DNA from: Thermodesulfovibrionia bacterium
GTDB taxonomy: Bacteria > Nitrospirota > Thermodesulfovibrionia > UBA6902
Length of the DNA: 8,585 bases
NCBI GenBank assembly: GCA_947258735.1
Contig: CAMYJJ010000129.1
Span: forward strand, 1 to 8,585
Direction: 5' to 3'
In this document: in pieces, positions 1-8,585 of the stretch
Layout of the letters: every line of letters begins with the position of its first letter
Numbering within the stretch: the first letter of the stretch is position 1
Notes under the pieces: model-generated
Seen by the model: the letters and a program-made list of their open reading frames with translations, nothing else
Told to the model about the DNA's origin: nothing
Databases searched by the model: none
Translations under genes and position numbers: made by a program

Positions 1-1209
1 TTTATCGATAACTTCACGTTTATGGATTAATCCAAGTTTTTCCAGCTGGGTTACTGTGATTGAGGCAAGTTCTTCATCAGATGAGTTCCAGATAGTATCA
101 CCTTTAAAACAAAAGTATTCAGCAACGATATGGGTTTTCCCTTCAGGAGCCATACGGGGGCTCCAGTTTTTTGGCTCATGAATTCTTCCGAGAGGCATGC
201 TCTGTTCAGGCAGGTACATCCATGTCAGATCAGTGACCTGTTCACGGTCCAGCATAATGGCAACGATCACGATATCCCTGTACTTTAATTGTAATGCAGC
301 CTCAAGAACATCTGCCGGTGGAGCAGGATCAAGCATCTTGACGAGACTGGTAATCGGTATGCTGGAGATGAATTCACTGCCCTCAAAATTGGCATTCAGA
401 TTGCTCTTTTCAGTGCAGATATTGGTAATGTCAGAACCATTGTGACAGATTCTCTCAATACGTGCACCTGTAATCACCTGATTTTTTTGTGATATTTCGC
501 TGCTTAGATTATCAGAGATCTGACCTATGCCATAAGGGGGATATATAAACTCATCCAGCAGGGTGCTGATATTCTTATCACCAAATTTAAAGGCATTTTT
601 AATAGCTACCCCAAGCGATAATCCCTTAATTCTATGTGAAACCCATTCTTCACTTATCCTGTTGCATCCGATACCCCATACCTTTTCGCTGTATTCCTTG
701 AAATACAGGGTGAACATGGTCCTTCCAAAATGAGCTACGACCCAGTCTTCAAGAGAAATGTTTTTCGGGTCCCTGAAGACTTTTTTCAGCTTTTCCATTC
801 CATAATCTGATACTGCCTTTATGGTTGTTGGTAAGCCCATACCAAGAAGGGCATTAGAAGGTTTGAGTGGATAATTGAAAAACTTATTTTTCATGAATAT
901 TTTGCTTTTCCGGGGTACGGTCACATAATCACCATGAAGAATGTCCTTGATGAACCTTTCAGTTTCTTTATTCTTTGTATGAAATCTGTGCCCGCCAAGA
1001 TCAAACCTGAAATCACCATGACGAATGGTTCGTGACAGGCCTCCCACTTCACTGTTTCCTTCAAAGACCATTACGGGCAAGCCTGCTTTTGCAAGGACAT
1101 ACCCTGCTGAAAGTCCCGCAAGACCACCGCCCAGAATTATTGATGTCCTTCTGTCCCGGTGAGATGAAGAATCCATCTGATCTATTTGATTTTTCTTGAA
1201 AAATGCCAT
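1..1209 (-). CDS. FAD-dependent oxidoreductase, UDP-galactopyranose mutase / protoporphyrinogen oxidase-like (partial, 3' end missing)
   Basis: An uninterrupted frame runs 403 codons from ATG at 1209 to the window edge without a stop, so the C-terminus is missing. Seen: a beta-alpha-beta FAD-binding fold at residues 23-50 with the dinucleotide motif GGGLAGLSAG (27-36), the ribose-binding acidic residue E50, then EVGGLSR (54-60) and GGHRFHTKN (72-80). Further on come KEYSEKVWG (171-179) and YPPYGIGQISDNL (223-235), which resemble the substrate-domain motifs of the UDP-galactopyranose mutase/amine-oxidase superfamily. Such proteins use FAD in sugar-nucleotide, porphyrin or carotenoid chemistry; the substrate here cannot be read from sequence. 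The first 22 residues are polar and precede the Rossmann strand. There is no Shine-Dalgarno sequence before ATG 1209 or before the next in-frame ATG (codon 12, 1176), so the start is uncertain. It lies just after a terminator and is probably transcribed separately from the lipoprotein gene upstream. Confidence 0.85.
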   Translation of the reverse strand, partial: MAFFKKNQIDQMDSSSHRDRRTSIILGGGLAGLSAGYVLAKAGLPVMVFEGNSEVGGLSRTIRHGDFRFDLGGHRFHTKNKETERFIKDILHGDYVTVPRKSKIFMKNKFFNYPLKPSNALLGMGLPTTIKAVSDYGMEKLKKVFRDPKNISLEDWVVAHFGRTMFTLYFKEYSEKVWGIGCNRISEEWVSHRIKGLSLGVAIKNAFKFGDKNISTLLDEFIYPPYGIGQISDNLSSEISQKNQVITGARIERICHNGSDITNICTEKSNLNANFEGSEFISSIPITSLVKMLDPAPPADVLEAALQLKYRDIVIVAIMLDREQVTDLTWMYLPEQSMPLGRIHEPKNWSPRMAPEGKTHIVAEYFCFKGDTIWNSSDEELASITVTQLEKLGLIHKREVIDK

Positions 1210-1214
1210 GTTAC

Positions 1215-1243
1215 ATTATACAAAAAATTTCGGGGCACCTCAA
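1215..1243 (-). promoter_or_regulatory. Possible sigma70 promoter for the flavoprotein gene
   Basis: On the minus strand TTGAGG (1243-1238) is followed by a 17-bp spacer and a perfect TATAAT (1220-1215). Only GTAAC separates the -10 from ATG 1209, so a transcript would begin at or next to the start codon and be leaderless, consistent with the missing Shine-Dalgarno sequence. The -35 falls in the loop and the spacer in one arm of the terminator hairpin. Promoter activity is inferred from hexamer match and spacing only. Confidence 0.4.
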
Positions 1244-1263
1244 TAATGATGGCCCCGAAATTT
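1222..1263 (-). terminator. Rho-independent terminator of the GYG-repeat lipoprotein gene
   Basis: A perfect 12-bp inverted repeat (1225-1236 pairs with 1252-1263) has a GGGGC/GCCCC core and a 15-nt loop. Read on the minus strand it ends in six consecutive T before G. It starts 36 bp past the lipoprotein stop codon. On the plus strand the hairpin is followed by a poorer T-run, and no plus-strand gene feeds it. Confidence 0.8.
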
Positions 1264-1298
1264 ATTATTTAAATTGAAGAAAATATCGCTCGAGCTTT

Positions 1299-1712
1299 CT
1301 ATTTGCCGTAGCCCTTCATCATGTCTTTGGCTTTATCGCCATAGCCACCAGCAGCTTCTTTGGCTTTATCTCCATACCCGGATGCTGCTTCTTTGGCTTT
1401 ATCGCCATAGCCGGAAACAACTTCCTTTGCCTTATCACCATATCCGGAAACAGCCTCTTTCGCTTTTTCACCATACCCTGCTGTAGCTTCTTTCGCCTTA
1501 TCTCCATAGCCGGATGCTGCTTCCTGAGCTTTATCGCCATAGCCGGAAACTGCTTCCTTTGCCTTTTCACCGTATCCGGAAACAGCCTCTTTGGCTTTTT
1601 CACCAGGACTTCCGGCTTCTGTTGCATGCTCCTCCTTCTTCTGACAGGAGACAAAGATTAATCCAAAGACAAATACAGATATACACATGACTGCCAATGC
1701 TGCTTTTCTCAT
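1299..1712 (-). CDS. Small lipoprotein with nine 11-residue GYG repeats
   Basis: 137 residues. Residues 1-22 form a lipoprotein signal: K3, a hydrophobic core, then lipobox FVSC with C23 as the predicted acylated cysteine. The +2 residue is Q, not D, which in enterobacteria favours outer-membrane sorting. A short charged linker (24-36) leads into nine tandem 11-residue repeats (37-135) of the form G[E/D]KAKEAVSGY, ending GK. The 11-residue period with alternating K/A/E resembles LEA-type or apolipoprotein-like amphipathic repeats, but the invariant SGYG is not the LEA consensus. No enzymatic motif is visible; a periplasmic or surface structural or stress role is a guess. The start is supported by AGGAGG 8 nt upstream. 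It has its own promoter (1823-1850) and terminator (1222-1263), so it is a single-gene unit. It echoes the GGYGG-repeat protein encoded at 2494-2826. Confidence 0.88.
   Translation of the reverse strand: MRKAALAVMCISVFVFGLIFVSCQKKEEHATEAGSPGEKAKEAVSGYGEKAKEAVSGYGDKAQEAASGYGDKAKEATAGYGEKAKEAVSGYGDKAKEVVSGYGDKAKEAASGYGDKAKEAAGGYGDKAKDMMKGYGK
1308..1604 (-). repeat. Nine in-frame 33-bp tandem repeats within the lipoprotein gene
   Basis: Nine contiguous 33-bp units encode the 11-residue repeats. Units differ mainly at third positions and in the residues following KAKE. They have no spacers, so this is a coding repeat and not a CRISPR array. Arrays like this can vary in copy number between strains. 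Confidence 0.9.
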
Positions 1713-1822
1713 TACCAGGTCCTCCTTTGATTTTGGGGTAGTCCCCCTGTTTATAAATTGAGTAATTGTACTTTTGAATTCGTTATAATCAGGAATCGTT
1801 TTGTTCGCTGATAGTATAAAGA

Positions 1823-1850
1823 ATTATATATGATCTGTCTTATTTGTCAA
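1823..1850 (-). promoter_or_regulatory. Near-consensus sigma70 promoter of the lipoprotein gene
   Basis: On the minus strand a perfect TTGACA (1850-1845) is followed by a 16-bp spacer and a perfect TATAAT (1828-1823). Transcription would begin near 1815, giving a leader of about 100 nt before ATG 1712. The leader contains a short GGGG/CCCC hairpin just upstream of the ribosome binding site. The promoter lies between the stress-protein terminator and the lipoprotein gene, which supports separate expression. Confidence 0.7.
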
Positions 1851-1936
1851 TATCAATTCAAATTCACATATATATATTATGGTAACAAACCCCTGCATTC
1901 AAATGATTGTGGAGATTGTTTTGATTTTGAATCCAT

Positions 1937-1972
1937 AAAAAAAGAAGGACTGCAGATACACGCAGCCCTTCT
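1937..1972 (-). terminator. Rho-independent terminator of the sulfur/stress gene unit
   Basis: In the minus-strand transcript an 11-bp stem (AGAAGGGCTGC with GCAGTCCTTCT, one G-U pair) and an 8-nt loop are followed directly by seven T. It begins 15 bp past the stress-protein stop codon and is the clear 3' end of the minus-strand block. Confidence 0.9.
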
Positions 1973-1987
1973 GGTTTTATTGATATG

Positions 1988-2455
1988 TTATTTTGTTTTT
2001 GCAACAAACACCGGGATATCAGATCTGTTGACAACTTCCATGCTGACACTTCCCATAAAGGTGTGAGAAGTTCTGTTGCCCCTTGATCCGAGCATGATCA
2101 TTTCTGCACCTTCTTCTGCTGCAGCCTTCATTATTTCATCTGCAGGATGACCTCCCCTGATCTCAGATCTGACTCTGGTGATACCGTCAGATTCAAGGGC
2201 CTGTCTGTAGTAATCAAGCACTTTGTTTGCTTTTTTATCCAGCGCTTCCTTGTACTCTGTTCCTTCCAGGACTTCCTTCAGTGTTGACATTTCAGCATCA
2301 CCAAGCATTTCATCAATCAATGATCTTCCCTCAAACTTTTCTACAAATAGCAGAATTACTTCTTCAGGATTAATGCAGGAACACAGCTTGCTGCACGTTG
2401 AAAACGAACCTTTTATTCCTTTTGTATCATCTACGGCTATTAACACTTTTTTCAT
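1988..2455 (-). CDS. Universal stress protein, UspA family
   Basis: 155 residues, normal length for a single-domain Usp. Seen: first strand KKVLIAVDD (2-10), the HPADEIMKAAAE helix region (103-114), strand AEMIMLGSRG (117-126), and the C-terminal MGSVSMEVVNRSDIPVFVAK (134-153) with its ribose/phosphate-binding GSVS. Family members are cytoplasmic dimers, often ATP-binding, tied to stress or growth arrest. The usual G-x2-G-x9-G(S/T) motif is here G123-x2-G126-x8-G135, one residue short, so ATP binding should not be assumed. Helix 1 holds three cysteines in CSKLCSC (21-27), unusual for this family. The start is supported by AGGTG about 5 nt upstream. It is the last gene of the sulfur unit: 38 bp separate it from the GGYGG-repeat gene and a strong terminator follows. 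Confidence 0.93.
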   Translation of the reverse strand: MKKVLIAVDDTKGIKGSFSTCSKLCSCINPEEVILLFVEKFEGRSLIDEMLGDAEMSTLKEVLEGTEYKEALDKKANKVLDYYRQALESDGITRVRSEIRGGHPADEIMKAAAEEGAEMIMLGSRGNRTSHTFMGSVSMEVVNRSDIPVFVAKTK

Positions 2456-2493
2456 TTTTACACCTGACTTTTTATCCGTTTTTAAGATACGTA

Positions 2494-2826
2494 TTACTTG
2501 CCGCCGTAACCGCCGGAATGTGCGCCGCCGCCGTATCCACCGGAAGCTCCTCCGCCATAACCGCCTGCTGCTGCGCCGCCGTATCCACCGGAAGCTCCTC
2601 CGCCATAGCCGCCTGCTGCTGCGCCACCATATCCACCGGAAGTTCCTCCTCCATACCCGCCTGATGCCCCGCCATAACCACCAGCATCATGACCTCCTCC
2701 ATACCCGCCTGAAGCTACTCCTTGTACTGCGCCTCCTCCAATATTTCGGGGCGCCAGGCTATAGCCGACGATAAAACCAAGGATCCCAACCACGATGATA
2801 ATGATAATCCACAAACTGTTTTTCAT
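2494..2826 (-). CDS. Membrane-anchored glycine/tyrosine-rich repeat protein
   Basis: 110 residues, family not recognised. Residues 5-24 are one strongly hydrophobic helix (a run of isoleucines and valines, then GILGFIVGY) that can serve as an uncleaved N-terminal anchor. The rest (about 30-109) is nearly all Gly, Tyr, Ala and Ser. It has nine GGYGG cores, tyrosines at 42, 51, 58, 66, 74, 82, 90, 98 and 107, almost exactly eight residues apart. The tail has no cysteines and few charges, so it is likely disordered or stacked on the outer face of the inner membrane, though topology is inferred. AGGAGG lies 8 nt before the ATG. It sits between the TusA-like and stress-protein genes with short gaps, so it is probably co-transcribed. 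A link to sulfur metabolism rests on position alone. Confidence 0.82.
   Translation of the reverse strand: MKNSLWIIIIIVVGILGFIVGYSLAPRNIGGGAVQGVASGGYGGGHDAGGYGGASGGYGGGTSGGYGGAAAGGYGGGASGGYGGAAAGGYGGGASGGYGGGAHSGGYGGK
2500..2712 (-). repeat. GGYGG-coding tandem repeat (24/48-bp period)
   Basis: The GGYGG cores recur every 24 bp. A higher-order 48-bp unit alternates an Ala-rich linker (AAAGGYGG) with a GAS linker (GASGGYGG) and is nearly repeated twice at about 2524-2622. Strand composition is skewed: C-rich on plus, G-rich on minus. Confidence 0.85.
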
Positions 2827-2865
2827 AAATTGATCCTCCTGAAATAGTTAAAAGGGTTCCCGTTC

Positions 2866-3117
2866 TTATCCTTTTTCGATGATGTAGATGAGTTTACCGC
2901 CCTCTTCCTTTTTTTCAAGCAGATCATGTCCGCCCTGGTCAATCATCTGAATGATTGTTTCCCCTGATGAAGGGTTGTCAAATACCAACTCAAGGACATC
3001 CCCTTCTTCAATTTTTTCCAGGGATTTTTTTGTATATATCTGGGGATGCGGACATACATAGCCGCACACATCCAGCATATATTTTCCATCTTCAACTTTT
3101 TCAAATTTCATTGCCAT
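2866..3117 (-). CDS. TusA-family sulfur carrier protein
   Basis: 83 residues, the usual TusA/SirA/YeeD length. Seen: the N-terminal signature DVCGYVCPHPQ (16-26) with the family CPxP motif, C22 being the expected persulfide-carrying cysteine. A second cysteine, C18, lies four residues earlier. The following helix (KKSLEKI), the GDVLEL strand and a late Gly-His match the two-layer alpha/beta fold. TusA proteins receive sulfane sulfur as a persulfide and pass it to DsrE-type partners, tRNA thiolation or other acceptors. The gene directly follows a YeeE/YedE transporter gene (37 bp gap), the same pairing as E. coli yeeE-yeeD (TsuA-TsuB), where the TusA-like partner supports thiosulfate uptake. 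The first ATG is preferred because AAAGGAGG lies 9 nt upstream; the second Met (codon 3) would be further away. Confidence 0.93.
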   Translation of the reverse strand: MAMKFEKVEDGKYMLDVCGYVCPHPQIYTKKSLEKIEEGDVLELVFDNPSSGETIIQMIDQGGHDLLEKKEEGGKLIYIIEKG

Positions 3118-3154
3118 GATAAACTTCCTCCTTTAAATTAAGTGTTACGTATTT

Positions 3155-4597
3155 TTAAAATGCTTCCATTTCTTTGGCCATTTTTCTTTCTGTCCACCAG
3201 TTAAAGAATTTAACGCCGCCATAGCCACCGACAACCATACCTATGCCAAATAACCAGCCGCCCGGATCACCGCCGGCAACTCTTATAAAGAATGCGCCTA
3301 TATTGCATCCAAGTGCTACACGGGCACCAATCCCCATAAGTAATCCTCCGCCAAGACCCCAGACAATGAGTTCACCCTTTGGAAGCTTCCACTTAAACTC
3401 TTTATTTAATAAAGACATTACCATTGCTCCAAATATGATGCCAAAGGACATCCATAGTGCCGGGTTACGCCAGAGCTCAGGCAGGCCGTTCATGACGCCA
3501 AAGAACACATTATCCCTGACATTCCAGCCTACTTTCTCCATGATCCATCCTGCAAATTGTGCTTCCTGTGTCGTGATATACCAGTAGCCCGGATCGAAAA
3601 TTTTCCCCATTGTTGAGAGGTCGCCGGTATGTCCCATTCTCGCGAGAAGTTCACCAAAATTCGATACGCCGAACTTGTTCTGCATACCCTTCATCGCAAG
3701 AATATGAATACCTGCTGTAATCCCGATCAGCACGCCCATGAGGGTTGTTCTCTGGGATGCGGTAAGCATATTCCAGATACCCCTGAAGTCATCTCCCAGT
3801 CCTGTCTTTTGCTCTTTGCCTGCCTTCTTCAGCGCCTTCTTTGTCTTTTTTATATGAACTTTGCGCATAAAGAAATAGTAAATCAAAACCATAACCAGGA
3901 TAGCGGGAATGATAGTGTTAATAAGAGAGTTTGCAATAAAATTTCGTGCTATATCACCGCTCATTACGGAAAAAGCTTCTGTATCAGAAAGGATGATATT
4001 CTTTTTAAAGACGATGTTACCGAGAAAAAAGTGATCAAACCATGATGTGATCTTGTCTTTAGGGACCCATGTAGTGGCCTGCGCCTTTTCTATCCAGGAC
4101 TGGGGCAGTAAGTTGTTGAATATACCGCCCACATCAACAAAGATGGCCTGACCAAAAGATATACCCATGATAGACAGGATCGATGTTCCGTTGCCTTCCC
4201 CGATCTTATAAAGAGACCCAGATGCGCATCCGCCTGCCAGAACCATTCCGACTCCAAATATGATCCCCCCGATTAACTCATGAGTTCCCAATGGTCCGGC
4301 ATGAAAAGTACTCATGTTTGTCGCTGCAAGCACAACGCTCACCAGGCTGAAGAATATCAGGGCGATAAGAATACCCACTGCCATTCGAGGCACGCCTGCA
4401 GCGAACAGATCTCGCGACGCAGATGCCATGCAGAACCTTCCATACTGAAGCATCATTCCATAGGCAAAACCAAACCAGATATACACTATCAAATAAACGT
4501 AGTATATGTTTGCACTGTAGTACAACAGACTTATCAGAATCATTGCGCCGGTGACAATAAAGGCCCAGAGCTGATTTCTTTTTTCTACATTTTCCAC
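3155..4597 (-). CDS. YeeE/YedE (TsuA-type) thiosulfate/sulfur transporter
   Basis: 480 residues, mostly hydrophobic helices. Seen: three short cysteine motifs typical of the Sulf_transp (DUF395) family, GRFCMASASRD (C56), AGGCASGSLYKIGEGN (C124) and ARVALGCNIGAFF (C431). In the characterised YeeE homologue three conserved cysteines line the thiosulfate path. It is longer than E. coli YeeE (about 350 residues). The extra length falls mainly in a loop region around 160-225, a basic cytosolic-looking segment KVHIKKTKKALKKAGKEQK (247-265) and a soluble-looking stretch around 303-380. The substrate is probably thiosulfate, but YedE relatives are also linked to selenium, so related sulfur or selenium species are possible. 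The start is GTG, with AAAAGGAGG 11 nt upstream partly folded in a small hairpin; no ATG fits the frame nearby. It is followed by the TusA-like gene and preceded by a 197-bp gap after the DsrE-like gene. Confidence 0.92.
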   Translation of the reverse strand: MENVEKRNQLWAFIVTGAMILISLLYYSANIYYVYLIVYIWFGFAYGMMLQYGRFCMASASRDLFAAGVPRMAVGILIALIFFSLVSVVLAATNMSTFHAGPLGTHELIGGIIFGVGMVLAGGCASGSLYKIGEGNGTSILSIMGISFGQAIFVDVGGIFNNLLPQSWIEKAQATTWVPKDKITSWFDHFFLGNIVFKKNIILSDTEAFSVMSGDIARNFIANSLINTIIPAILVMVLIYYFFMRKVHIKKTKKALKKAGKEQKTGLGDDFRGIWNMLTASQRTTLMGVLIGITAGIHILAMKGMQNKFGVSNFGELLARMGHTGDLSTMGKIFDPGYWYITTQEAQFAGWIMEKVGWNVRDNVFFGVMNGLPELWRNPALWMSFGIIFGAMVMSLLNKEFKWKLPKGELIVWGLGGGLLMGIGARVALGCNIGAFFIRVAGGDPGGWLFGIGMVVGGYGGVKFFNWWTERKMAKEMEAF

Positions 4598-4617
4598 AGG
4601 TTGACAAACCTCCTTTT
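4598..4617 (-). promoter_or_regulatory. Ribosome binding site of the transporter gene, partly in a hairpin
   Basis: On the minus strand AAAAGGAGG (4617-4609) precedes GTG 4597 by 11 nt, longer than ideal. AGGTT-TGTC-AACCT (4611-4598) is a perfect 5-bp inverted repeat that includes the last three bases of the Shine-Dalgarno sequence. Folding would either shorten the effective spacing or mask the site. The effect on translation is inferred. Confidence 0.45.
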
Positions 4618-4710
4618 AAATTTTTTTAATCGGGGTAATCTTAGAGCGTTGGTTTTATTGACAGTTTTTTATATTAAAGACATCACATGATAATATACAC
4701 CGGAACAATA

Positions 4711-4735
4711 GTCCAATAAGAAAAAATTATTGGGC
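4711..4735. repeat. Inverted repeat in the gap between the transporter and DsrE-like genes
   Basis: CCAATAA (4713-4719) and TTATTGG (4727-4733) are perfect inverted arms around G plus six A; one outer G-C pair and a G-U extend them on the plus strand. It lies in the 197-bp non-coding stretch 4612-4808, the only sizeable gap inside the minus-strand unit. It could be an operator or an RNA hairpin. It has no T-run placed like a terminator, and no confident promoter was found in the gap. Confidence 0.4.
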
Positions 4736-4808
4736 AATTACCAATGTTTATCTGCTCATTAAATCAATGTGTTATTAAGTAGGGCTAAGGGGTGAACTAC
4801 CAAAGGTA

Positions 4809-5111
4809 CTAAAGAACGATAACTTTATCACAGTCATGGTTCATATTGGCGTTGTCAAACTGGCTGCCGCATACTATCTCATCAGAAATCCCCTCAGTAG
4901 TAATCTCTGAATTTTTGGCGCTATGGTCGCAAAAACTCAGCTTTACGCCCTCTTTGCCGCATAGTGACTGAAATTCAGATTTGCCAAGAAGTTTTGTACC
5001 AACATCCATATTAAAAATGGTTACTTCATGTCCTTTTGCAACGGCAGAGCTGGTAAGTCCAACTATATCATTAAGATGTTTGTCGGTTGTGACAAGTATT
5101 CCAAGTTTCAT
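4809..5111 (-). CDS. DsrE/TusD-like sulfur relay protein
   Basis: 100 residues; DsrE/DsrF-like alpha/beta fold. Seen: first strand MKLGILVTTD, a helix, then strand GHEVTIFNMD (27-36). Next GVKLSFCDHSA (55-65) lines up with the segment of E. coli TusD around its active cysteine (GVALNICVAAA, recalled from memory), making C61 the likely persulfide cysteine. The C-terminus DCDKVIVL matches the TusD ending TCDRVVQF, including the cysteine (C94). Cysteines C51 and C81 are additional. DsrE/TusD subunits accept sulfur from TusA-type carriers within an E/F/H (D/C/B) complex. It is the only cysteine-bearing member of the local trio, so it is the probable catalytic subunit. AAAGGAG lies about 11 nt before the ATG. 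At 100 residues it is shorter than classical TusD (about 128). Confidence 0.8.
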   Translation of the reverse strand: MKLGILVTTDKHLNDIVGLTSSAVAKGHEVTIFNMDVGTKLLGKSEFQSLCGKEGVKLSFCDHSAKNSEITTEGISDEIVCGSQFDNANMNHDCDKVIVL

Positions 5112-5138
5112 GTTAATCTAGTCTCCTTTCAGATGTAT

Positions 5139-5156
5139 GACAGACCCTGATCTGTC
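5139..5156 (-). promoter_or_regulatory. Intercistronic hairpin between the DsrH-like and DsrE-like genes
   Basis: GACAGA (5139-5144) and TCTGTC (5151-5156) form a perfect 6-bp stem with a 6-nt loop. It begins in the stop codon of the 55-residue gene and ends about 15 nt before the next Shine-Dalgarno sequence. There is no T-run, so it is not a terminator; it may affect mRNA processing or relative translation. Confidence 0.35.
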
Positions 5157-5323
5157 TACCATGTAATGACTTTATCATTTCCGGCGATAGCGTCAACTAT
5201 CTCGTCATAATTCTTATTTGCATTAATATCGATTATTGATACATCATTGGACTGCTTCTGCACCTCAATCATCTTGTTTACCGTATCATCCGGGGTGCTT
5301 CTCATGAGATAGAGAATCTTCAT
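5156..5323 (-). CDS. 55-residue TusB/DsrH-like mini-protein
   Basis: 55 residues, cysteine-free. Seen: first strand MKILYLMRSTPDD, a helix TVNKMIEVQKQ (14-24), strand DVSIIDIN (27-34), helix YDEIVDAIAGN (39-49) and terminal strand DKVITW. The last third resembles the C-terminus of TusB/DsrH proteins, which end in a strand finishing with Trp after a YxxFVxL-type helix. Classical members have about 95 residues, so roughly 40 are missing. ATG 5323 was chosen because GGAGG lies 10 nt upstream. The same frame opens further upstream, but that extension overlaps the DsrF-like gene and has no family-like sequence. Between the DsrF-like and DsrE-like genes it completes an F-H-E trio. Its role as a third, non-catalytic subunit is inference from position and C-terminus. 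Confidence 0.7.
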   Translation of the reverse strand: MKILYLMRSTPDDTVNKMIEVQKQSNDVSIIDINANKNYDEIVDAIAGNDKVITW

Positions 5324-5381
5324 GCTTTCATGACCTCCATTCCTTTTATGTTTATTCAATATAAATAATCTGTTGCTTTGT

Positions 5382-5654
5382 TTAGTAAGGCAGTATGGTA
5401 TCAAACTCAAGAAGCTTTTGTGCCATGTCTTCAGTGGATATGAATTCCATGTTCTCATTACCCTTGAAATTGGTATACAGCTTTACATCCATATCCGGCA
5501 TGGTTTCCAGGTTCATATCGTTATCATCATTCTTCTCAACTTCCCTGTCCAGAACAAATACACTTACTTCATCATCAGCAAGGATCATTCCTATTCCCAT
5601 CCTGAGGGCTTCTCCCTGTCTGTCTCTCACCAGAATTGCTATCTTCTTTGCCAT
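5382..5654 (-). CDS. DsrF/TusC-like small protein
   Basis: 90 residues, no cysteine. Seen: first strand KKIAILVRD (3-11), an amphipathic helix GEALRMGIGMILADD, strand EVSVFVLDREV (29-39), an acidic Asp/Asn-rich loop (40-48), strand MDVKLYTN and a terminal helix-strand LLEFDTILPY. The start resembles TusC (KRIAFVFS) and the end resembles the TusC ending YDVILRF, both recalled from memory. TusC/DsrF subunits form the alpha/beta partner of TusD/DsrE; the lack of cysteine fits a structural role. AAGGAGG lies about 7 nt before the ATG. It follows the rhodanese gene by 43 bp, so co-transcription is likely. Classical TusC is about 119 residues; this one is shorter. Confidence 0.72.
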   Translation of the reverse strand: MAKKIAILVRDRQGEALRMGIGMILADDEVSVFVLDREVEKNDDNDMNLETMPDMDVKLYTNFKGNENMEFISTEDMAQKLLEFDTILPY

Positions 5655-5697
5655 TGTTTCACCTCCTTTTAATGAATAAGACTTGATATGTTCTTGT

Positions 5698-6663
5698 CTA
5701 ACAATTTTTTATACAGGCAGGATATGTTGCAGGATCCAGTCTATTACCCCATTCACCCCATGAACCAACGTAATTTTTAACATTTGGATATCCAAGAAGG
5801 TGTTTCAGTACAAAATATGTGTGAGAAGCGCGTACGCCGCCTTCACAGTATAGTACGATCTCCTTGTCCTTTGTTATTCCTTTTGCTTCATATGCAGCTG
5901 CTAAATCAGCTGACGATTTGAATGTTCCATTACCATTAAGGTTTGTCGAATAAAACTCCATATTGAGCGCTCCCGGGACATGCCCTGTCCTCTTGATTTG
6001 TGATGGATTATCTTTCCCAACAAATTCCCCCTGTGTACGTACATCAACAATTTTTACTCCTGAGTTTTTTATATTTTTCAGCACATAATCAGCGCTGGAA
6101 TAAATTGAGGTATCAGGCGAGGCTGAGTATTGAGTAGGTTTGACCTTTGCAGGGCCTGCGGTTGTACTGCGGCTTTCTTTCATCCACTTTCCCATACCGC
6201 CGTTAAGAAAACTGACCGTCGTATGCCCGTTATATTTCATTACCCATAATGCAGCAACAGTGAAAGGATTATCCGAGCCACCCACAATTATTACATGCGT
6301 ATTATCACTGATCCCGAGCCTGCCCATCATTGCTTCAGACATTGCCTTGTCCGGAGCTGCACTGCCATTTCCCATGACACCCATGAGCTCACCAATACCA
6401 AGATATATTGAGCCCGGAATGTGTTTCATATTGAAATACTTTTCTGACTCAGGATTTAAACTTCCAACGTGCACAATTCGTATATCAGGATTTTTTAAAT
6501 TATCTGCCAGCCACTGGGTTTCAACAAGAGCGGGCTTTCCTCCATTAAAATGTGCATGCACCGATTGAACTGAGAATGAAAGTACTAACAGAAAAACACA
6601 CACAATAACAAGAGCAGTGAATGAGCCCTTTCCTGTACTGATCAGGTTGCGCAAAGATAACAT
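5698..6663 (-). CDS. Exported tandem-domain rhodanese (thiosulfate sulfurtransferase)
   Basis: 321 residues. A signal peptide or N-terminal membrane segment spans residues 17-37 with a likely cleavage SVHA|HF after A37. Two rhodanese domains follow, about 43-165 and 185-312. The first has the fold (ALVETQWLADNL, HIPGSIYLGI) but GGSDNPFT replaces the cysteine loop, so it is inactive, as is usual in tandem rhodaneses. The second has VDVRTQGEF, GHVPGALN and the active loop CEGGVRA with C273. Rhodaneses move sulfane sulfur from thiosulfate or persulfides to an acceptor. Export places this one in the periplasm or membrane-bound outside the cytoplasm. The protein ends CIKNC (C317, C321), an unusual terminal cysteine pair. 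AAGGAGG lies 8 nt before the ATG. It is the first gene of the minus-strand sulfur unit, divergent from mlaE. The physiological donor and acceptor are unknown. Confidence 0.92.
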   Translation of the reverse strand: MLSLRNLISTGKGSFTALVIVCVFLLVLSFSVQSVHAHFNGGKPALVETQWLADNLKNPDIRIVHVGSLNPESEKYFNMKHIPGSIYLGIGELMGVMGNGSAAPDKAMSEAMMGRLGISDNTHVIIVGGSDNPFTVAALWVMKYNGHTTVSFLNGGMGKWMKESRSTTAGPAKVKPTQYSASPDTSIYSSADYVLKNIKNSGVKIVDVRTQGEFVGKDNPSQIKRTGHVPGALNMEFYSTNLNGNGTFKSSADLAAAYEAKGITKDKEIVLYCEGGVRASHTYFVLKHLLGYPNVKNYVGSWGEWGNRLDPATYPACIKNC

Positions 6664-6976
6664 TGCAAAATCCTCCTTATTGAGTTTAAAGTTATCAGGG
6701 TTACGTTGAACGATACTCTACATTTTAGATACTTACACTTCAACATATTTATTGTCCTAATGTCAAATTCATGCTCATACAAAAGGAAAATTCCCCTTGC
6801 ATGGTGATGAACAGGAGATGAACATAGTAATTCATGAATTCTGCAATATATGTCCTTTAATCTTAAAGTCTGTTCATTCAGAGTTTAATGTAACCCTAAT
6901 ATATGACAAGATGTTATAATCATCGGGAAATTGTTGTTCAATAACGTACCGTTAACTATATAAAGGATATCTTGCC
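6664..6976. other. Divergent intergenic region with palindromes and a direct repeat
   Basis: This 313-bp AT-rich, gene-free stretch separates the rhodanese and mlaE genes. Seen: direct repeats GATGAACA at 6806-6813 and 6817-6824 (11 bp apart, about one helical turn), with an inverted near-copy AATGAACA (complement of 6871-6878). There are also palindromes AATTCATGAATT (6829-6840) and CTTTAA-TC-TTAAAG (6855-6868). An isolated TTGACA on the minus strand (6766-6761) has no matching -10 at normal spacing, so the rhodanese promoter could not be placed. Regulator binding is inferred. Confidence 0.5.
6912..6920 (+). promoter_or_regulatory. Extended -10 promoter candidate for the mla operon
   Basis: TGTTATAAT (6912-6920) is a perfect extended -10 element (TGnTATAAT). 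The -35 region 17 bp upstream (AACCCT) is poor, as is common with extended -10 promoters. Transcription would start near 6927, giving a leader of about 50 nt before mlaE. Confidence 0.45.
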
Positions 6977-7756
6977 TTGTCCATTGAACTTGTAAAGACA
7001 AAGGATGCCATTGCCAGGCTGCAGGATTATTATGCACTTGCACTTAAGGCCCCATTTGGTATTTTTCGCAAGCCCTTCTACATCAAGGAAACGATCGAGC
7101 AGATGGATTATGGCGGTTCCGGGTCATTTTTTATTGTCTTTCTTGTGTCTCTTTTTATAGGGATGGCATTGTCGCTGCAGACCTCCGCAGAACTGGCAGA
7201 AATGGGCCTTAAGATGTATACAGGGAGGGTGGTGGGTCTTTCGATCATAAAGGAGATAGGCCCGGTTGCGATTGCGCTCAGTTTCGCAGGCAGGGTAGGT
7301 TCGGGCATGGCTTCAGAGATCGGCTCAATGACCCTTGGTCATCAGGTTGATATTCTCAGGGTCCATGGTGTCAGCCCGATAAAAAAACTCGTGTCCCCGA
7401 GGGTAATCAGTTCGATCATTATGCTTCCGGTTTTGACTGTTATCGGAGATGCTGTTGCCCTGCTTGGCGGATATATTGTTGCTGTGACTGCTGCCAATCA
7501 GAGCGGCTCTGTTTACTGGAGTCAGATAAAGCAGATTATGGAATTTACCACTATCTTCTCCGGGGTCATAAAACCATTTATATTTGGGTATCTTATATCC
7601 ACGATCAGTTGTTATATGGGCCTTTCAACAAGAGGCGGAGCGCGCGGGTTGAGGAAATCAACAACTGAGGCAGTGGTGTACTCAACGATAATGATTATTG
7701 TGTCTGATTTTCTGGTAACAAAAATTCTTATTTTAGCCCTTGGGATTCCGGTATGA
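6977..7756 (+). CDS. mlaE: MlaE-type ABC transporter permease (YrbE family)
   Basis: 259 residues, normal MlaE length. Inner-membrane permease of the MCE/Mla lipid transporter, which moves phospholipids between the inner and outer membranes. Seen: an N-terminal amphipathic interface segment, a membrane segment around 50-66, then the family core IIKEIGPVAIALSFAGRVGS (90-109) running into GMASEIGSM. Hydrophobic helices lie around 143-171 and 193-213, with GLSTRGGARGLRKSTTEAVV (215-234) and a last helix around 233-256. The start is TTG at 6977 with AAAGGA 9 nt upstream; no ATG is available before the first membrane region except codon 43. Its stop overlaps the mlaF start (ATGA), so translation is probably coupled. 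Confidence 0.95.
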   Translation: MSIELVKTKDAIARLQDYYALALKAPFGIFRKPFYIKETIEQMDYGGSGSFFIVFLVSLFIGMALSLQTSAELAEMGLKMYTGRVVGLSIIKEIGPVAIALSFAGRVGSGMASEIGSMTLGHQVDILRVHGVSPIKKLVSPRVISSIIMLPVLTVIGDAVALLGGYIVAVTAANQSGSVYWSQIKQIMEFTTIFSGVIKPFIFGYLISTISCYMGLSTRGGARGLRKSTTEAVVYSTIMIIVSDFLVTKILILALGIPV

Positions 7757-8508
7757 TTGAGTTCAAAAATGTGACATTGGCGTATGGAAGTCATGTCGTG
7801 CTGAATGACGTCAGTTTTAAATGTCACTTTCATGAAAAAATCGCTGTGCTGGGAGGAAGCGGCGGAGGGAAGACCACTATCCTGAAGCTCATGCTCGGTC
7901 TTGTCAGGCCGGATTCGGGACAGATATTAATAGACGGCGAAGACATAACAGAATTCTCCGAATCGGAGTTGAGAGACCCCAGGCTTAAATTCAGTATTGT
8001 ATTTCAGGAGGGAGCATTGTTTGACTCGATGAATGTCAAGGAGAATGTTGCGTTCTCTCTCAGGGAATACACAAAATCTACTGAGGAGGAAATTGAGAAA
8101 CGGGTCAGAGACCTGCTGAAGATTCTGAAAATCGAACATGCTATCGATCTTATGCCCGAAGAGCTGAGCGGCGGGATGCAGAGAAGGGTGGCCATAGCAA
8201 GGTCCCTGGCCGGGACCCAGCCGAAAATGATGCTGTATGATGAAGCCACCACCGGCCTTGATCCGCTTACAGCGGATAATATCTGTAATCTCATAAATGA
8301 ACTTTCCAAGGGCAGTCCTCCGGGCCGGGTGGGTTTTATCATTGTTACTCATAAGGTTACCGATGCTGCAAAGGTTGCTGAACGGTATATTTTTGTGAGA
8401 AATGGTAATATAATTTTCGATGGAAATATAGATGAGCTTAAGAATACGGAAGATACGATACTGAGGACATTTATCAATGAACTGTATGTCGTTGATGGAT
8501 GTAAATAA
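7753..8508 (+). CDS. mlaF: MlaF-type ABC transporter ATP-binding protein
   Basis: 251 residues, an intact ABC ATPase. Seen: Walker A GSGGGKTT (35-42) with K40, Q-loop Q85 in VFQEGALFDS, signature LSGGMQRR (138-145), Walker B MMLYDE (159-164) with D163 and catalytic E164, D-loop TGLD and switch H200. The ALFDSMNVKENVAF segment after the Q-loop is typical of MlaF/Ttg2A, separating it from amino-acid importers. It energises the MlaE permease in the cytoplasm. Its ATG overlaps the mlaE stop by the ATGA arrangement, and the mlaD-like start follows 11 bp after its stop, so E-F-D is one operon. Confidence 0.96.
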   Translation: MIEFKNVTLAYGSHVVLNDVSFKCHFHEKIAVLGGSGGGKTTILKLMLGLVRPDSGQILIDGEDITEFSESELRDPRLKFSIVFQEGALFDSMNVKENVAFSLREYTKSTEEEIEKRVRDLLKILKIEHAIDLMPEELSGGMQRRVAIARSLAGTQPKMMLYDEATTGLDPLTADNICNLINELSKGSPPGRVGFIIVTHKVTDAAKVAERYIFVRNGNIIFDGNIDELKNTEDTILRTFINELYVVDGCK

Positions 8509-8519
8509 GGGTGGTCTGA

Positions 8520-8585
8520 ATGTATGATTATATAAAACATGTCAGGTGGGCTTCTATAAAAGTCGGGCTGCTTACTACTGTTTCT
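8520..8585 (+). CDS. MlaD-like MCE protein (partial, N-terminal 22 codons)
   Basis: ATG 8520 opens a frame that stays open to the window edge: MYDYIKHVRWASIKVGLLTT and on. The start of a hydrophobic helix after a basic segment (W10-A-S-I-K-V-G-L-L) is what MlaD/MCE proteins show before their MCE domain (compare LKVGLF-type starts). AAGGGTGG lies 5 nt upstream. The assignment rests mainly on the mlaE-mlaF-mlaD order, since only 22 residues are visible. MlaD would form the periplasmic ring bound to MlaE and carry lipid. Confidence 0.65.
   Translation, partial: MYDYIKHVRWASIKVGLLTTVS

Follow-up and report, generated by a model that had tools for sequence, protein, structure and literature searches.

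The locus considered here raises the question of whether a short run of sulfur-transfer genes encodes a path for sulfur from outside the cell to a cytoplasmic enzyme and, if so, which enzyme stands at its end. It lies in an 8,585-nucleotide stretch of DNA from a Thermodesulfovibrionia bacterium (assembly GCA_947258735.1, contig CAMYJJ010000129.1, positions 1 to 8,585 of the forward strand), which we call the window. On the minus strand of the window, eight co-directional genes run from position 6663 to position 1988 and are followed by a hairpin resembling an intrinsic terminator. In order, they encode an exported rhodanese, three small proteins that form a DsrF-H-E-like trio, a YedE-family transporter, the carrier TusA, a glycine-rich protein with GGYG repeats (the GGYG protein), and a universal stress protein (Usp). 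We consider it probable that these genes encode a relay leading from outside the cell to a sulfite-handling enzyme, in the order rhodanese, YedE, TusA, DsrE, DsrC, and DsrAB. Relay sets of this kind are already known; the present one comes with extra partner genes.

The membrane step centers on a 480-residue transporter (positions 4597-3155, GTG start) of a long YedE subfamily, which scores 152.4 bits against the Pfam family Sulf_transp, above the cutoff. It has exactly three cysteines, C56, C124, and C431, and these align with C22, C91, and C293 of Spirochaeta thermophila YeeE (6leo), which bears out the initial annotation of a channel with three motif cysteines. In YeeE, the cysteines stand in a row across the membrane that ends beside the cysteine of the partner protein YeeD (PMC11073785; this and all other papers cited here are represented by portions of their text), and it is from that work that the row itself is taken. 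By our own reading of the alignment, the YeeD-contacting residues R28, E101, and E261 of YeeE correspond to R62, E134, and E400 of the window protein, and R98 corresponds to K131. The nearest relatives of this YedE, in records titled Thermodesulfovibrionia or Nitrospiraceae, are 94% (L001) and 91% (L003 and L055) identical (L and G numbers denote loci and genomes of relatives), and the subfamily as a whole shares at least 50% identity across the full length. The 83-residue TusA (positions 3117-2866) scores 68.8 bits against Pfam TusA, above the cutoff, and has cysteines at positions 18 and 22, of which C22 lies in the CPxP motif, as expected of the CPxP carrier proposed initially. Counting, here and below, loci with enough flank, 73 of 76 have tusA after this yedE, a pairing that is also part of the published YTD gene cluster discussed below.

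Upstream of the transporter gene lie the trio genes, encoding a 90-residue DsrF-like subunit of the Chp1 type (positions 5654-5382), a minimal 55-residue DsrH-like subunit of the Chp2 type (positions 5323-5156), and a putative 100-residue DsrE type II subunit (positions 5111-4809). For the 55-residue gene, a longer start at position 5458 is on offer, and relatives favor the start at MKILY. The DsrE-like protein reaches 18.3 bits (E 0.0027) against Pfam DsrE, below the cutoff of 22.7, and its profile matches to solved structures are weak (3mc3, E 0.017; 2hy5_A, E 0.3); a search with it returned 635 proteins at E 0.001 or better. Of its cysteines (positions 51, 61, 81, and 94), C61 is the sole one common to all 18 aligned sequences, a set that excludes the Electronema protein, and it is the likely counterpart of the transfer cysteine of the DsrEFH type II complex. 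The 90- and 55-residue proteins contain no cysteine and fall below the cutoff of every family scanned; profile comparison with Protein Data Bank sequences gave weak, unrelated matches only, and with Foldseek alone neither had a match at E 0.001 or better. The 90-residue protein does have the DsrF-like fold of DsrEFH type II, and both small proteins, together with the DsrE-like one, align with the tusA-dsrE-dsrF-dsrH sets of loci L018, L022, L050, and L054, as homologues of Chp1 and Chp2 of the YTD cluster would. Near this yedE, dsrH lies upstream in 38 of 58 loci and dsrF in 20 of 56. The trio, or part of it, also adjoins two further kinds of YedE in Nitrospirota and at least three other kinds in all, these kinds being told apart by score and length only. 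Given that the same trio sits beside several kinds of YedE, we regard the trio as the constant part of the system and the transporter as the variable one. Loci L118 to L121 and L130 show another order, rhodanese-dsrE-F-H-yedE-tusA-usp, with a YedE that scores about 104 bits against the profile of the window protein.

At the outer end of the proposed path is the tandem rhodanese (positions 6663-5698), which scores 112.6 bits against Pfam Rhodanese, above the cutoff, with 1uar as its best solved relative (E 1.2e-51). Its catalytic loop carries Cys273 (CEGGVR), and its N terminus, read by eye, resembles a signal peptide, in agreement with the initial view of it as a secreted sulfurtransferase; a rhodanese gene lies upstream of this yedE in 30 of 55 loci. 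Between tusA and usp, the 110-residue GGYG protein (positions 2826-2494) falls below the cutoff of every family scanned; alignment with its relatives reveals a single N-terminal membrane segment followed by GGYG repeats. In three of 80 loci, a similar N terminus, with a membrane segment and a GGYG-like stretch, is fused to a rhodanese (L040, 9506-10654; L030, 11770-12912, where the stretch reads AGYGGGG; and L023, 3359-4570), and in L040 and L030 the fusion occupies the slot of the GGYG gene itself. Such fusions suggest cooperation outside the membrane between the GGYG protein and the exported rhodanese. The last gene of the unit encodes a 155-residue Usp (positions 2455-1988; Pfam Usp, 67.4 bits, above the cutoff), and 60 of 69 loci have a usp gene within 2 kb downstream of yedE. 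The window Usp has a cysteine cluster; in the single relative compared, L042, the Usp lacks it.

Which protein receives the sulfur in the cytoplasm? The initial annotation left the final acceptor open, having seen no candidate in the window; in relatives, dsrC and dsrAB lie elsewhere in the genome. Among the 50 genomes that stand behind 50 of the 80 YedE loci, dsrA was found over the cutoff in 46, dsrC in 48, and aprA in 39. With dsrA and dsrC so frequent in genomes that hold a related YedE, DsrC is the likely final acceptor of the relay. The near relative G002 has a dsr locus comprising dsrAB, a cobB-like gene, dsrC, a gene for an RsbRD_N protein, and dsrMKJOP, plus two small frames of 81 and 126 residues; sat and aprA lie elsewhere in its genome, and Qmo-like genes are present. 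The DsrC of G002 has two C-terminal cysteines and ends in CRYAGLPKPTGCV. We also considered DsrD as a mark of the reductive type, and it proved of no use for Nitrospirota, being found in only 6 of the 50 genomes, those behind L018, L022, L026, L047, L050, and L054, all of which are of the Desulfobacterota type.

Co-occurrence was counted in 198 genomes from the phylum of G002 (a record titled Nitrospiraceae), with an E-value threshold that differed for each family: 1e-60 for this YedE (36 genomes), 1e-80 for dsrA (87 genomes, 84 of them over the cutoff), and 1e-10 for DsrE (68 genomes). The dsrA gene is present in 32 of the 36 genomes with this YedE and in 55 of the 162 without it; for DsrE, the corresponding figures are 35 of 36 and 33 of 162. 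The Fisher values for these and the co-occurrences given below ignore kinship and are too small.

Taken together, these observations would fit the following path. The exported rhodanese would handle zero-valent sulfur outside the cell, as thiosulfate, polysulfide, or persulfide, with the GGYG protein perhaps helping to hold it at the membrane. Sulfur would then cross the membrane through YedE along C431, C124, and C56 and be taken over by C22 of TusA docked at the inner face, from which it would pass to C61 of DsrE in a DsrEFH-like complex, and on to DsrC and DsrAB, working together with Apr, Sat, and Qmo. Such a path could feed sulfur oxidation, including the oxidizing arm of disproportionation. 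An outside-to-inside path with import and a cytoplasmic relay, as the initial annotation had it, is well supported by the conserved cysteines, the gene order, and the dsr background, and the substrate, the direction of flow, and the roles of the rhodanese, the GGYG protein, and Usp are inferred. In cable bacteria, TusA and DsrE type II exchange sulfur via Cys67 of DsrE, and DsrEFH type II hands sulfur one way to DsrC (PMC13293266).

Several points weigh against this relay. None of the cable-bacterial proteins TusA, DsrEFH, and DsrC was loaded by thiosulfate (PMC13293266), and this leaves thiosulfate in question as the donor; the natural one may be polysulfide or a protein persulfide. The dsr evidence is drawn from the genomes of relatives and not from the window's own, four of the 36 genomes with this YedE have no dsrA match, and in the draft genome of one close relative (G003) neither dsrA nor dsrC was found. 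Among the others, G028 has dsrC and no dsrA was found in it; G045 has dsrC and a dsrA-like match below the cutoff; and G047 has a weak dsrA-like match and no dsrC was found in it. The match of the 55-residue protein to a DsrH-like fold is unspecific. A dsrE gene lies within 5.5 kb upstream of this yedE in 39 of 58 loci, and the trio is often elsewhere. The YedE of the Desulfobulbales YTD cluster is only about 28 to 34% identical to that of the window, over about 80 to 110 residues; by this comparison, the 480-residue YedE is a subfamily other than the Desulfobulbales one. Finally, the window protein scores 94.5 and 64.3 bits against the two TsuA models, far under the cutoffs of 400 and 645, so that the initial label of a TsuA-type transporter holds at the level of the superfamily and is ruled out as an equivalog.

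The arrangement of the genes bears on whether they act as one transcription unit. Seven or eight co-directional genes had been noted initially, and there are eight. The hairpin that follows them (positions 1972-1943; 12 pairs, 6 of them GC, and a T-run) is the longest of those listed, there being 9 such sites in the window versus 7.3 expected by shuffling; ribosome-binding sites, read by eye, look good for every gene except usp, although each gene had been credited with one. The order of the genes recurs in sequenced relatives, as it had been proposed to check, and goes beyond chance. A single transcript for all eight is nevertheless doubtful, because a conserved noncoding block fills the gap before yedE and because in many relatives the two halves are not adjacent. 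This gap, initially placed at 4612-4808, in fact spans positions 4598-4808 (211 bp); its mean column identity with L001 to L003 is 80%, with long invariant runs. Such strong conservation would suit a second promoter and a leader, and the sole promoter-like site within the gap is a weak sigma-70-like one at positions 4715-4687. That rhodanese-dsrFHE and yedE-tusA-GGYG-usp are two adjacent units with their own promoters seems to us possible, if somewhat short of an even chance; this concerns architecture only, is compatible with the relay, and is judged separately from it. Besides the conserved block, it is favored by a membrane-protein gene that lies between the halves in many relatives and by the location of the trio on a different contig in the drafts G010, G174, and G227. 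On the other hand, genomes with this YedE nearly always have DsrE (35 of 36), and a trio that adjoins at least three other YedE kinds makes the neighboring YedE look like a habit.

Below the terminator, a perfect sigma-70-like site (TTGACA-16-TATAAT, positions 1850-1823, minus strand) precedes two further minus-strand genes, for a 137-residue lipoprotein-like protein with about ten repeats of the GYGDKAKEA type (positions 1299-1712) and for a flavin adenine dinucleotide (FAD) oxidoreductase of the PRK07208 kind that is cut by the window edge (positions 1 to 1209). It is the only site with all twelve bases among 22 promoter-like sites, versus 21.5 expected, and from it these two genes probably form another transcript in this clade. 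Some relatives have repeat proteins in the same position, between usp and the FAD gene. On the plus strand, divergent genes for an MlaE permease and an ATPase occupy positions 6977-8508; among the 80 loci, mlaE adjoins the unit only in L001 to L003. The window contains no tRNA and no structured RNA above the Rfam gathering score. A viral origin was rejected, there being two pattern matches and no relative.

The FAD gene leads to a second set of genes that recurs with this YedE. The part of the oxidoreductase present in the window scores 381.4 bits against NF005548 (cutoff, 389). Downstream of this yedE, an FAD oxidoreductase gene is found in 51 of 65 loci, a B12-radical-SAM gene in 46 of 54, a radical SAM/SPASM gene in 23 of 43, and a GT2 gene in 21 of 43; upstream, a gene for a PMT_2-like membrane protein is found in 45 of 67. 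In the sample of 198 genomes, the thresholds were 1e-60 for the PMT_2-like protein and 1e-100 for the B12-radical-SAM enzyme (41 genomes each), and for the FAD enzyme a line at 500 bits (39 genomes, versus 56 at 1e-80) that was set after the gap between scores of 519 and 467 had been seen. The pattern is strong: the PMT_2-like protein is present in 35 of 36 genomes with this YedE and in 6 of 162 without it, the B12-radical-SAM enzyme in 34 of 36 and 7 of 162, and the FAD enzyme above 500 bits in 32 of 36 and 7 of 162. Of the 42 genomes with either of the first two, 40 have both. The link with dsrA is less specific: 50 genomes that have dsrA lack the PMT_2-like gene. Of 17 genomes with no PMT_2-like gene in its usual place at the YedE locus, 15 hold one (the misses are G032 and G041); in G044 and G046 it lies nearby on the other strand, in G035 it lies beside a second copy of YedE, and in G004 the locus is cut short. 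Conversely, G166, G168, G221, and G223 have the PMT_2-like gene without this YedE and with another YedE nearby, and in G082 and G120 the stretches that carry the module run to contig edges and show no YedE. Beyond Nitrospirota, the PMT_2-like gene is found in loci titled Desulfobulbaceae or Deltaproteobacteria (L018, L022, L026, L047, L050, and L054), Actinomycetota or Actinomycetes (L049, L052, and L056), Rokubacteria (L062, L063, L068, and L076), and Hydrothermarchaeota or Pyrohabitans (L060, L061, and L069); several of these lack the FAD gene, and neither it nor the B12-radical-SAM gene is present in the three archaeal loci. What these archaeal loci do have is the same row of yedE, tusA, and usp, accompanied by PMT_2-like, GT2, and radical SAM genes.

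One tentative idea, to which we would give somewhat less than even odds, is that the relay makes up only the visible half of a larger system, as yet undescribed, and depends on a dedicated module of the PMT_2-like membrane glycosyltransferase, the PRK07208-type FAD oxidoreductase, and the HpnJ/BchE-like B12-radical-SAM enzyme, often joined by the radical SAM/SPASM and GT2 proteins. This would apply to dsr-bearing Nitrospirota and to the loci titled Desulfobulbaceae, Actinomycetota, Rokubacteria, and Hydrothermarchaeota, where all or some of the module stands beside the same YedE. The module might make an envelope lipid or glycan required for binding or holding zero-valent sulfur or for passing it to the rhodanese and YedE. 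In G223, the PMT_2-like gene is separated from a YedE by a nucleotidyltransferase gene and a HepT-like gene (L150, 4458-5437), so that neighborhood alone is no proof of function. The 12 stretches with an unlinked PMT_2-like gene share no neighbor common to all; pseudouridine synthase and transaldolase (each in 6 of the 12) were set aside as partners, as they look like housekeeping genes. In L143 (10744-13809) and L146 (5011-5747), the unlinked gene lies a few kilobases from tusA and a DsrE-type gene, which in L143 belongs to the DsrE_2 family, with a gene of the outer-membrane FadL type in between; these are perhaps another sulfur-carrier set. We found no report linking a YTD-type relay with this module in the openly licensed literature, a search outside of which figures and supplements fall, and the founding 2020 paper may show the module; the text portions of PMC12998232 and PMC13047784 mention no glycosyltransferase, radical SAM, oxidase, or universal stress partners, and that of PMC13293266 mentions no universal stress or glyco- partners.

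The same linkage and co-occurrence, including the 15 of 17 genomes that hold the PMT_2-like gene away from its usual place, could be read in the opposite direction, namely, that imported sulfur serves mainly biosynthesis, the PMT_2-like, FAD, and B12-radical-SAM enzymes making an envelope molecule that takes or needs sulfur, with the relay as its supplier. We think this unlikely: 37 of the 41 genomes that carry the PMT_2-like gene also have dsrA, the relay proteins correspond to those of a DsrC-feeding system that has been tested, and the module is seen without YedE on the contig-edge stretches of G082 and G120. Moreover, we know of no sulfur chemistry for these three enzymes. Less probable still is a defense against polysulfide or sulfide stress rather than energy metabolism, by uptake, dilution on carriers, and sensing. 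Its sign would be Usp, whose gene follows yedE so regularly (60 of 69 loci), along with the upstream rhodanese (30 of 55), but this YedE is strongly tied to dsr genes, and YTD proteins are more abundant during thiosulfate disproportionation than during sulfate reduction (PMC9751629). As for selenium transport and delivery in the manner of YedE/FdhT with YedF, the top NCBIfam scores of YedE and TusA do come from selenium-named models; these scores are far under the cutoffs (122.5 versus 350 and 49.9 versus 79), by which we reject a selenium system, and the neighbors are sulfur-transfer and dsr-linked genes, leaving this the most improbable of the three. We retain the relay to DsrC and DsrAB as the preferred reading.

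What the YTD set does is disputed, one view taking it as a marker of disproportionation and another connecting it with sulfur oxidation via DsrAB in reverse. That this DsrEFH-like trio also accompanies a second YedE subfamily suggests that the constant element of such sets is the trio rather than one transporter. The route by which solid or polymeric sulfur reaches the membrane is a poorly understood step; the profile that the PMT_2-like, FAD, and B12-radical-SAM genes share with this YedE suggests a true partnership, and if so, they would provide named, testable genes for it.

The initial annotation regarded the locus as a new merger of separate modules. We reject a first merger of this kind, since the YTD cluster, traced to Umezawa et al. 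(2020) and found in Desulfobacterota and Nitrospirota, already unites import and relay in a yedE-related gene, tusA, a dsrE-related gene, and two to three small hypothetical proteins (PMC12998232, PMC8780430, PMC9751629). Two 2026 papers identify these small proteins as DsrF- and DsrH-like (PMC13293266, PMC13047784), one of them naming the set DsrEFH type II; the use of YTD as a disproportionation marker is disputed in PMC13293266. The window shares with the YTD cluster the yedE-related gene, a CPxP tusA, the dsrE-related gene, and two small proteins. It differs in its exported rhodanese, which lies upstream and outside the YTD definition as given in the published portions cited, in its 480-residue YedE unlike that of Desulfobulbales, in the GGYG protein and Usp downstream of tusA, and in the order dsrF-H-E before yedE. 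With the cable-bacterial DsrEFH type II it has in common three subunits, the conserved DsrE cysteine, a DsrF-like fold, a DsrH-like protein without the DsrH cysteine, and synteny with tusA and yeeE/yedE (PMC13293266, PMC13047784), and subtype 1 of that complex is reported to be 57% Nitrospirota. However, the DsrH-like protein here has only 55 residues, and the DsrF-like one has no cysteine, whereas its cable-bacterial counterpart has two. DsrEFH type I is set apart by a DsrH cysteine (PMC13047784) that the 55-residue protein does not have. The YeeE/YeeD pair (TsuA/TsuB; 6leo, 8j4c; PMC11073785) shares the three-cysteine ladder and the CPxP partner cysteine, but YedE has 480 rather than 339 residues, with an unmatched middle and low TsuA model scores, and stands in a dissimilatory context. 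Similarly, the YeeE-like SoxT1 importers (PMC11582611) bring sulfane sulfur toward cytoplasmic oxidation; their context is sox and sHdr, while that of the present relay is dsr.

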